From Syncephalis fuscata (Eukaryota > Zoopagomycota > Zoopagomycetes > Zoopagales > Piptocephalidaceae), in assembly GCA_025786725.1 (NCBI GenBank), contig JAHLTZ010000008.1:186001-250000 (forward strand): a DNA stretch of 64,000 bases, read 5' to 3'. A program made the translations under genes and the position numbers. This document shows, in pieces, positions 10,298 to 54,533 of this stretch (its first letter is position 1; each line of letters starts with the position of its first letter). Under the pieces are notes generated by a model. That model saw only the letters and a program-made list of their open reading frames with translations. It was not told where the DNA came from and made no database searches.

Positions 10298-10435
10298 ATG
10301 AAACTTTCTATTGCCGTCATTTGCACTATCCTCGTGGCTCTTGTGGCCACTACAGCCATGGTGGATGCTGACCAGCCAACTCTAACCCGTCGCGATTCTC
10401 TTGCTACTGTTAGTCCATCTCCTCCTATTGAATAA
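10298..10435 (+). CDS. Small secreted peptide precursor (intronless paralogue)
   Basis: An uninterrupted 45-codon frame starting MKLSIAVICTILVAL, an obvious signal peptide with likely cleavage after ...MVDA. A short mature part follows, starting DQPTLTRRD and ending PSPPIE. It is paralogous to the multi-intron peptide gene at 22402-23125 (shared pattern MKxxxAxICT...ALV....VDA, lengths 45 and 44). Its 3' flank, from the stop codon to about 10680, is homologous to the last exon and 3' flank of the array at 39675-40160. It therefore looks like an intron-less, perhaps reverse-transcribed, member of the same family. The function is unknown; secretion is inferred from the signal peptide. An RR pair in the mature region could be a Kex2-type processing site. 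Confidence 0.6.
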   Translation: MKLSIAVICTILVALVATTAMVDADQPTLTRRDSLATVSPSPPIE

Positions 10436-10690
10436 CCAATACTTTCAAGACAACAGCAGTGGTAATCTAATTGAACTACTAGTTCAACAAACTTTAGGTA
10501 TATATTCGGCAAAAGCAAGACCCTTCGACAGCTGCCGTTTAGCCCATTTATACATCAAGTTTCAGCCAATGCTTCAGCTTATTCGCCATTTAAGTGATGG
10601 CATCATCATATTATTAACAAGTTTGCAATTAGTCGTTTCTATTCAGCTATGCAAAATTGTAGTAATAAAACATGTTTCCATTTAAAAAAC
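10436..10690 (+). other. Probable 3' UTR of the 10.3-kb peptide gene
   Basis: Matches 39914-40160 along its length, for example 'actttaggtata', 'ctgccgtttag', 'ttca-ctatgcaaa' and a terminal aataaa-type signal (10665-10672). An open frame runs across it in both copies, but the frames are offset by an indel near the stop codon. UTR is the simpler reading. Confidence 0.45.
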
Positions 10691-22401: not shown

Positions 22402-23125
22402 ATGAAGGCATTCTCTGCTACTATCTGCATGTTATCATGGCCCTCGTAATGAGCATCGCCACAGTAGATGCTAAGCCAGCATTACAACCCGCAGGTAAGG
22501 TTCAGTTTATAAGTGCTGCTTTTGGCTAACAGCTTCGATATCTTTTGTTACATTACATTAATAGGCAGTAAGTAGGCATTAGTACCTAATATATAATGCT
22601 AACTACATCTTGTACAATAACCAACGTTACAGTCGGTAAGACAAAGTTTTAATGCAAATCCAAGACTTGAATGTATTTTATTTACTCATATCATTATGGC
22701 CAATCAAAATTAATAGGGCGTAAGTTAAAGTTTTGTTTAATCAGCATATAAATAACTAATGCTATTTTTTGCAATTTAACATCCATAGAATGTAAGTTGA
22801 AGTCTTAAATATCCAATTGGAACATCTACTTACTTTTACTTTTATTAAATTCGAACTACATATAAATAGCCTGTAGGTTTAATACTGAATAATGTCTAGT
22901 ATTAAAACACTAACTAATTATACCAATATTACTTTTATTTAATGTTGCTAGTTGGTAGGTCTAGTTTTAATTATCTTATGCAAAGCACTAATGTTTATCT
23001 TCTATTCATTGAATGGACCATCATTGATAGCTGGTAAGTTTTAATGAATTGTTATTTTACTATTTAATAGCGCTTATTTCTTTTTCTTAAATCCACTGTT
23101 AATAGCCAAAAAAGCGCCTAAATAA
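22402..23125 (+). CDS. Secreted peptide precursor built from seven 3-nt microexons
   Basis: Exon 1 (22402-22494) encodes a signal peptide starting MKAFSATIC and ending ...TVDAKPALQPA plus one base. It needs one extra base near 22430 to stay open, restoring the ICT motif of the 10.3-kb paralogue. Seven consecutive 3-nt exons follow, each flanked by ...ag and gtaag/gtagg: 22565-22567 GCA, 22633-22635 TCG, 22717-22719 GGC, 22789-22791 AAT, 22870-22872 CCT, 22952-22954 TTG and 23031-23033 CTG. The last exon, 23106-23125, ends in TAA. All junctions are phase 1 and introns are 65-81 nt. Spliced, the tail reads GIGQSFAAKKAPK and the precursor has 44 residues, against 45 for the intronless paralogue. 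The mature part is short and cationic. The function is unknown; a secreted signal or antimicrobial-type peptide is only a guess. Splicing itself is predicted, not shown. Confidence 0.6.
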
Positions 23126-39354: not shown

Positions 39355-39674
39355 AATGAACAAAAATGCGATTACTTTAAAGTAAAGGAGAAAATAAAAA
39401 GCGAGTAACTGAACAAGAAATATAAAATCTGTTGATTAATAAACTCCGATCTATCAAGATTATTTTAACCATCTGGCAGTTACACATTGTCGTTTTTCAT
39501 CCATAACTAAAATGTTTATTAATGGCTAGAAACTTACGAATGCACTTTGAGTAAATAAAGCTTTTTATTTAATATATTTTGATTATATTTGAAATGTAGC
39601 TATAAGCTAGTATATCAGTTAGCTGTACACCAACTATATGTTTACTATGCATATTAATGGTTTAATATTAATAG
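39355..39674. other. Intergenic upstream of HIS3 and of the second microexon array
   Basis: AT-rich. No signal-peptide exon could be found for the array that follows, so the array appears to lack its 5' end. Confidence 0.4.
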
Positions 39675-40160
39675 GTCGTAAGTGGCATTACATACGAGCT
39701 AGCTATGCACTAATTATATACTATTTACTGCATATCCCAACGACTTAATATTAATAGCTGGTAAGTTGTGTTGTGTAATAATTGACTATGTACTAATTAT
39801 ATGATTGCTACGTGTATCAATAACTTTACATTAACAGTTGGTAAGCGGAATTACCTATTAATTAGTTATATACTAATTGCATGCTATTTATTGTACTTGT
39901 AAAAACAGTTCAATCGAATATTTCAAGCCATTGGCATGATAATACAATTGGACTAATAGTCCAATATACTTTAGGTATACACTTGGCAAAAAGCAAGACT
40001 ATTCAGCAACTGCCGTTTAGTTCATTCATTTATCAAAATTCTGCCAATATTTCGGTTTATCTATCTTTTAATCAATGGAATCATTATATTGCCAACAAGT
40101 TTGAATTTGGTTAAATTTATTCAACTATGCAAACTTATAATAATAAACATATGATTTCAT
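39675..40160 (+). pseudogene. 5'-truncated second microexon array (peptide family)
   Basis: Three 3-nt exon candidates in series: 39675-39677 GTC, 39758-39760 CTG and 39838-39840 TTG. Each is bounded by ...ttaatag or ttaacag and gtaag. A last exon begins at 39909 after aaaacag. The units repeat every 77-83 bp, and each intron carries an actaatt(a/g) motif, so they look like tandem duplicates. In phase 1 they read CCT-GTT-GTT-CAA, aligning with CCT-ATT-GAA-TAA of the intronless paralogue at 10425-10435. The 3' flank is homologous to 10436-10680. No signal-peptide exon is visible upstream, and the stop is replaced by CAA, so I call it a truncated copy; a distant first exon is possible. Confidence 0.5.
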
Positions 40161-40631
40161 TTTGATGAGGACGATGATGATTTATCCGTGATTCGACGAT
40201 TTAAATATTGATACACCACTCATTTTCATGTTTAATAAAACAAATATTAGTTTAATTGAGAAATATTATTTAGTTACTTAATTTGTAAATCGCAACAAAT
40301 GGTTAATAGATTGTTTAATAATACTCAATGGCACAAAATACGCTATATAATTAAAATGATTGGCAAATATTTGCCAGCTCTTGTAGGCCTACTCTACTCT
40401 CCTCCACCAATACCAAGTTATCTGCAAATACTCCGTACGTGACATATATCCGAATAATAGCTCCTTGCTACTTTTACACTTTATAGCCATACTGTGATTT
40501 GCTTAAATTGGCGAGTAGTAACTAACGTTATTCATTTAACAGAAAGTTCCGTAAAAGTTGTTTTTTATTACAGAGACGCTAACAAAAACTAGTAAAAAAC
40601 ACTCGTTATTAAATAACTTATGTGATTAAAA
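40161..40631. other. Intergenic region
   Basis: AT-rich. The 40208-40285 part resembles 487-565. No gene seen. Confidence 0.4.
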
Positions 40632-54336: not shown

Positions 54337-54454
54337 AACTACGTTCATTGCGCCTAGAAAGCACCGGATCCCGTCCGATCTCCGAAGTTAAGTTAGGCCG
54401 CGCTTCTGTAGTACTGCGGTGGGGGACCACGCGGGAATGAGAAGTAATGTAGTT
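54337..54454 (+). rRNA. 5S ribosomal RNA
   Basis: Recognised from the conserved core 'gaaagcaccggatcccgtcc' followed by 'gatctccgaagttaag', then 'gtagtactgcggtgggggac' and 'ccacgcgggaat'. The ends form helix I: aactacgtt at 54337 pairs with aatgtagtt at 54446-54454. The length of 118 nt is normal. The internal control region (A box around agttaag, C box around gtagtac...gcgggaat) is intact. It is a lone, dispersed 5S gene on the plus strand with no strong T-run terminator directly after it. Confidence 0.93.
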
Positions 54455-54460
54455 TCAGTA

Positions 54461-54533
54461 TGCGTAGTTGGTTTAGTGGTATAATTACCGCCTGCCACGC
54501 GGTAGACCGGGGTTCGATTCCCCGACTACGCAA
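54461..54533 (+). tRNA. tRNA-Gly (anticodon GCC)
   Basis: A full cloverleaf. The acceptor stem is tgcgtag/ctacgca with discriminator A. The A box is in gttggtttagtggtataatt. The anticodon loop is cctGCCacg in the stem taccg/cggta. The B box is ggttcgattcc in the T arm. No intron, no encoded CCA. It starts 6 nt after the 5S rRNA gene. Two short T-runs (cctttt, gctttt) follow within 15 nt and probably terminate Pol III. Confidence 0.96.

Follow-up and report, generated by a model that had tools for sequence, protein, structure and literature searches.

A probable single-codon exon array and its surroundings

The window, by which we mean the whole stretch of 64,000 nucleotides of Syncephalis fuscata DNA that was analysed, contains seven units of the form AG-NNN-GTARG in a row at positions 22495-23105, preceded by a signal-peptide exon and followed by a short last exon (Table 1). 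The eight introns of this array are, in order, 70, 65, 81, 69, 78, 79, 76 and 72 nt long, and their donors are GTAAG or GTAGG. When the window was scanned for (C/T)AG-NNN-GTARG, the longest chain had seven units on the plus strand and one on the minus strand. No chain exceeded two units in 300 order-1 Markov simulations of the window, and a chance run was rejected on this ground as the source of the array. The original prediction of seven consecutive 3-nt units, with introns of 65-81 nt and these donors, was confirmed in the sequence. Exon lengths from 1 to 30 were scanned on both strands of the window, and chains of at least three units were found for length 3 alone.

Table 1. Features of the window and of array genes elsewhere in the genome
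Feature	Position	Strand	Remarks
Intronless family member	10298..10435	+	45 aa + stop; nr model P0004 ends differently
Conserved family 3' region	10427..10686	+	73-77% to spliced array genes
Exon 1, diverged family signal-peptide exon	22402..22494	+	Sequence, family signal-peptide match
Intron 1	22495..22564	+	70 nt, GTAAGG...TTAATAG
Microexon GCA	22565..22567	+	Unit scan
Microexon TCG	22633..22635	+	Acceptor ...TTACAG; unit scan; passed over by the splice-site model
Microexon GGC	22717..22719	+	Unit scan
Microexon AAT	22789..22791	+	Unit scan
Microexon CCT	22870..22872	+	Unit scan
Microexon TTG	22952..22954	+	Unit scan
Microexon CTG	23031..23033	+	Unit scan
Last exon	23106..23125	+	20 nt including the TAA stop at 23123-23125
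Array-gene relic	39610..39840	+	Units GTC 39675, CTG 39758, TTG 39838; introns like those of L062
Conserved family 3' region of the relic	39912..40166	+	74-78%
5S rRNA gene, tRNA-Gly gene directly after	54337-54533
L062, full-form array gene	C2:225.3-228.7 kb
L083, intact array gene	C157, from 314.9 kb
L097, 6-nt (two-codon) microexons	C242:93900-97000	minus	18 in unit chains, 15 in the splice model

In phase 1 the array tail reads GIGQSFAAKKAPK and ends at the TAA stop 20 nt into the last exon, as had been proposed. The branch-like motifs noted earlier in several introns were also found, with CTRAY present in 5 of the 8. The predicted product contains no cysteine. The proposed precursor of 44 residues did not hold, as the first ATG opens a frame that closes within exon 1. 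ATG 22402 reads MKAFSATICMLSWPS, its frame is closed by the stop at 22447-22449, and it reaches the donor in a phase other than 1. The ATG at 22437 is in frame with the array, and its reading, MALVMSIATVDAKPALQPA, together with 13 residues from the array and tail makes 32 aa. The family signal peptide described below matches the window at 22431-22484 (67% over 18 aa, E 0.001) and at 10298-10396 (76%, E 2e-11), which supports the suggested paralogy between the array and the intronless gene at 10298.

The introns of the relic at 39610-39840 matched those of L062 by up to 81% over 80 nt; a signal exon was not found at the relic. For the introns of the window array, comparison with L062, the sole array used in the window scan, gave no detectable similarity, and a search of the S. 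fuscata genome with the DNA of the window copy and with its 19-residue exon-1 peptide returned the copy itself and no relative. From these two results, the window copy is probably an old and short family member with a damaged exon 1. The array is very probably a small, diverged member of a large S. fuscata signal-peptide family, and it may be degraded, since the frame of ATG 22402 closes in exon 1. For the view that it is a pseudogene, with function confined to other family members, the chances seem evenly balanced. The frame closed from the family's start position, the lack of a genomic relative by its own DNA or exon-1 peptide, and the presence of an array relic 17 kb away agree with a pseudogene, but all seven units, the phase and the final stop are intact, an in-frame ATG is present at 22437, and the closed frame may be an assembly error.

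Array genes across the genome

One ORF of the window is identical to a part of an S. fuscata protein. The S. fuscata assembly (28.95 Mb, 299 contigs) was scanned with the pattern ATAG-NNN-GTARG, 48-78 nt, AG-NNN-GTARG, and the reversed pattern was used as the control. Adjacent pairs of 3-nt units numbered 3,232 (1,436 + 1,796) versus 1 in the control, and triples numbered 2,640 versus 0. The corresponding scans gave 0 matches for 4-nt units (control 14), 6 for 6-nt units (control 0) and 1 for 9-nt units (control 1). Five of the six 6-nt matches came from a single locus, L097, which is a family member with 6-nt exons. When its exons were joined, one frame was open for 36 codons and the other two had 4 stops each; by eye, its exon 1 contains a stop. 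Exon lengths other than 3 were rejected as a general rule by these genome scans together with the window scan of lengths 1-30.

The family signal peptide was searched at 317 candidates, and all 150 scored places matched, each with E < 5e-7, a number that includes intronless and possibly broken genes. Each of the 150 encodes a conserved hydrophobic N-terminus resembling MKLSIAVVCT...VDA, a putative signal peptide. The modelled genes begin with a signal-peptide exon ending in phase 1, which is followed by up to 41 exons that are nearly all 3 nt long, a few being 6 nt; the last exon is short, and the 3' UTR is conserved. In the full-form gene L062, the signal exon is MKLSIAVVCTIVVAIMASTAMVDANPAIVRRD plus one base, the internal exons number 41 (40 of 3 nt and one of 6 nt), and the last exon ends in SPFPL; the array exons occupy about 4% of the stretch that they span. 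Of 11 modelled arrays, nine carry 27-41 exons, each 3 or 6 nt long, and the other two carry 21 and 15. Models in which other exon lengths were permitted under a penalty still gave 3 or 6 nt for nearly all exons.

Splice sites were profiled from 600 unique units. GTAAGT predominates at the donor and TTAATAG at the acceptor, profiles that were partly imposed, as the scan required TAG or CAG and GTR and the exons were 3 nt by design; the intron lengths of these units cluster at 73-80 nt. CTRAY occurs in 538 of 659 introns, versus 158 in shuffled introns. The introns resemble each other within and between arrays, and they have the characters of U2-type introns, namely GT-AG or GC-AG ends, a GTAAGT-like donor and a branch-like motif. 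GC donors (GCAAGT or GCGAGT) were observed at single microexons in L002, L031, L083, L086, L091 and L092, among others.

The frame is open through the array to the last exon in models including L031, L062, L083, L091, L092, L096, L099 and L101. Six family loci were fetched later, and only L099 and L101 of these give open, typical 6-Cys peptides. The models of L045/L046, L089/L090 and L098 contain stops, and exons of odd length are present in L085, L086, L094 and L102 (2 or 4 nt) and in L056 (1 nt). L103 has no usable donor, and the product of L100 is open and without cysteine.

Coding properties of the joined units

For 590 unique pairs of adjacent units, the codons formed across the junction in phase 1 included 6 stops, compared with 34.7 +/- 4.5 (minimum 17) in shuffles, and 90 Cys, compared with 46.5 +/- 4.9 (maximum 62). 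In phase 2, unique adjacent pairs gave 37 stops and 16 Cys. Phase 0 gave 0 stops and 4 Cys in 625 triplets, where about 9 stops were expected by a hand estimate from composition. Phase 0 as the reading frame is opposed by the exon-1 donors, for which phase-1 candidates alone had been retained, by the number of Cys (4 versus 90), and by the intronless copies.

The dependence on exon order was examined in the 11 models that contain 15 or more exons and no exon length other than 3 or 6 nt; they comprise 323 exons with none dropped inside. This sample excludes L002, L085, L086, L094 and L102, which have odd exons, and every model with fewer than 15 exons, including the stop-containing L045/L046, L089/L090 and L098. 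Splicing was modelled from site scores and lengths, without regard to stops but with a preference for an exon length of 3. Joined in their genomic order in phase 1, the 11 arrays contained 0 stops, 56 Cys, 30 CX2-3C motifs and 12 CX2-3CX2-3C motifs, and the corresponding means from 500 shuffles of exon order were 21.6, 31.6, 4.0 and 0.5. The observed values were never reached in the shuffles, in which the fewest stops were 11 and the most CX2-3C motifs were 11. An earlier order test, in which odd exons were dropped, gave the same picture.

These order-dependent properties and the alignments with intronless relatives given below lead us to conclude that the units are, almost certainly, exons of one codon each, which encode mostly cysteine-rich peptides with predicted signal peptides. 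The single-codon, phase-1 exons placed behind a signal-peptide exon in the original prediction therefore received support, as the architecture of a large gene family and not of one odd locus.

Intronless relatives

Thirteen distinct family peptides were obtained from loci without an array. Of 15 intronless loci, L082 was set aside, as its stretch ends 96 bases after the ATG, and the 14 usable loci were compared with eight array transcripts spliced in silico. In 10 of the 14, a single alignment of more than 500 nt at 68-82% identity covered both UTRs and the coding region (L060, L067-L070 and L078 at 73-82%; L072, L074, L075 and L076 at 68%). Among the best six matches of each locus, L032, L063 and L065 give fragmented alignments, and L071 matches at the 5' end only. 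In long array genes, the part aligned over more than 500 nt spans more than 2 kb of the genome. P0006 and P0007, which were used as intronless members, are contiguous in the genome at 100%; P0002 was also used, as a presumed intronless peptide. At the peptide level, local alignment of 11 spliced against eight intronless peptides gave a summed score of 469, compared with 308 +/- 18 (maximum 367) in shuffles; individual arrays differ in score, and L062 by itself does not exceed its own shuffles. At the level of sequence, the statistics and the intronless copies show the identity, phase and order of the units and their full inclusion in the predicted product.

A noncoding origin was also considered, in which an approximately 80-nt tandem repeat (minisatellite) carries a variable triplet, the AG-NNN-GT form arises incidentally, and the block either is noncoding or is excised in one piece. 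The units do lie in tandem and resemble each other, and gaps of 79 and 82 nt, each about one unit long, distinguish two gene copies. However, stop absence and cysteine spacing both depend on order, intronless copies match the spliced product, and the donor and acceptor profiles extend beyond the bases required by the scan. A noncoding minisatellite explains neither the order effects, the intronless copies nor the splice-site profiles; it was rejected, and we regard it as highly improbable.

In the family tree, which is midpoint-rooted and built on a short alignment with moderate supports, the intronless loci L060, L069 and L078 lie inside a clade of 18 whose other members are array genes (support 0.89), and the nodes beside them have supports of 0.80, 0.71 and 0.87, with one of 0.31. 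This placement suggests, from sequence relationships, repeated intron loss through back-copying of spliced RNA. Outside the clade of 18 lie further intronless groups, some of them on deep branches. The deep branches, and the likeness of introns within and between arrays, would also suit an intronless ancestor in which introner-like introns were gained between all codons. We consider this history unlikely: insertion in phase 1 at every codon needs an extreme site preference, and the nesting of L060, L069 and L078 among array genes fits repeated loss.

Predicted peptides and public gene models

Most intact products are cysteine-rich predicted mature peptides with the pattern CX2-3CX3C ... CX3C. 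The CX3C ... CX3C motif, as in the helical hairpin of alpha-hairpinin-like cysteine peptides, occurs in several products, but structure prediction for the intronless L069 gave a mean pLDDT of 63.5 and a pTM of 0.29, and Pfam matched single members only, with a best E of 0.0011. A profile search of nr found 15 family members, all from S. fuscata, and by eye none of the 15 looks like a microexon model. Two of them, P0012 and P0014, seem by eye to run past the first units into intron sequence. P0006 and P0007 are the nr members that were mapped back to the genome.

Probable full inclusion of the microexons

In the most likely mechanism, the ordinary spliceosome would remove every array intron by intron definition. 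Each strong donor (GTAAGT, sometimes GCAAGT) would pair with the next acceptor (mostly TTAATAG), so that all microexons would be joined in order into one peptide. RNA production, splicing of this kind and the order of intron removal are presumed in this mechanism, and the peptides would be secreted and work extracellularly, possibly on the host fungus. We hold this account with high confidence as a whole, including the array family, the single-codon exons, splicing by intron definition and full inclusion.

It had been suggested that alternative skipping of real microexons could produce a combinatorial set of peptides from one gene. Units of 3 nt preserve the frame, mispairing of donors and acceptors seems easy among such similar introns, and 287 of 308 single skips in the modelled arrays leave the product without a stop. 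The remaining 21 skips create a stop, and 82 of the 308 lose a cysteine. At one-unit skip junctions, however, stops are not depleted (39 of 556; shuffle 29.2 +/- 4.1), and the 34 Cys show no enrichment over the shuffle (40.9 +/- 4.6). In addition, the mature peptides of the arrays and of the Cys-rich intronless genes are alike in length and in cysteine scaffold. Combinatorial splicing is thus unsupported and appears improbable to us. Because the skip junctions have neither stop depletion nor Cys excess, the array sequences look to have been shaped by one full-inclusion product; rare skipping may nevertheless occur.

Relation to known microexon genes

A search of the open-access literature, with subscription papers mostly outside its scope, found no arrays of one-codon exons, and no microexon paper was found within this set for Syncephalis. 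As far as the excerpts of the sources extend, the micro-exon genes (MEGs) of Schistosoma appear to be the nearest known kind, followed by the bicycle genes of aphids. The 35 Schistosoma MEGs encode secreted proteins, have short exons that are mostly a multiple of three, and are hard to annotate automatically; there are 10-20 of these exons per gene, of 6-81 bp in the text (3-81 in the abstract) and mostly 15 bp, with introns of 0.1-5 kb and alternative splicing of the central exons (PMC10526429). As in these genes, short internal exons whose lengths are divisible by three make up most of the mature coding region of the S. fuscata arrays. The S. fuscata internal exons differ in that nearly all have the length of a single codon, with as many as 41 in a row; the introns are alike and mostly 73-80 nt, and the organism is a fungus. 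Aphid bicycle effector genes encode putative effectors and have many small internal exons of one phase, and a related gene has more than 100 microexons; their internal exons are almost all in phase 2, in contrast to those of S. fuscata, and are not described as single codons in the excerpted part of the source (PMC9168663).

Exons this small are also found elsewhere. Plant microexons of 1 nt are spliced, as confirmed by RNA-seq and RT-PCR (PMC8831610), and the fungal lipS gene has two 3-nt exons (PMC5639578); intronless copies are likewise inferred there from RT-mediated intron loss (PMC8831610, PMC5639578). P450 microexons of 2-10 aa occur in P. chrysosporium (PMC1184071). In the excerpts of these sources, the tiny exons of plants and lipS are single or paired per gene, and those of the fungal cases are few, whereas the S. 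fuscata arrays would encode the whole mature peptide.

Should RNA confirm the arrays, they would represent an extreme form of split gene, with thousands of one-codon exons in a 29-Mb genome and a spliceosome that joins about 40 three-base exons in order, and a possible route to vary a peptide residue by residue. They would then inform the question of exon versus intron definition, the steric limits on very small exons, and the means by which a donor finds its proper acceptor when dozens of introns are alike. Since the public models that were inspected seem to miss the arrays, similar families may go unnoticed in other organisms.

Codon variation between array units

Pairs of units were grouped by the divergence of their flanks into bins of 20 pairs at 2.9%, 26 at 5.8% and 438 at 10.6%, and 276 of the 778 pairs, with 11 flank differences, lay outside the bins. 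Per site, the codons differed 4.7, 7.1 and 6.5 times as much as the flanks in the respective bins. The most variable 3-nt blocks of the introns had values of 0.10, 0.13 and 0.31, versus 0.13, 0.41 and 0.69 for the codons. Among differing pairs with at most 6 flank differences, all three bases had changed in 7 of 18 by hand count; among pairs with at most one flank difference, the codon differed in 0 of 18. The test is not a clean one, because the introns may be homogenised, and the codon excess fits either diversifying selection with recombination of units or intron homogenisation.

Tentatively, and with somewhat less than even confidence, we propose that the codons behave as cassettes. Recombination between the approximately 80-nt introns would add, delete, swap and reorder codons with the frame kept, and the peptide would evolve residue by residue. 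The codon excess of 4.7-7 times agrees with this proposal, as do the gaps of 82 and 79 nt between two copies on contig 1, which equal the length of an intron together with 6 or 3 exon bases. Against it, none of the 18 closest pairs differs in its codon, and homogenised introns could mimic the pattern. No description of a diversity-generating architecture of this kind was found in the literature searched. If confirmed by RNA, the S. fuscata arrays would offer a testable way in which introns may aid peptide evolution.

Small gaps of 1-6 nt within the array and one long insertion also distinguish the two contig 1 copies. When L058 (C1:477.5-478.1 kb) was compared with L055/L031 (C1:531 kb), one copy of an inverted gene pair was found to carry an insertion that interrupts the array, and by eye this insertion looks partly tRNA-like.
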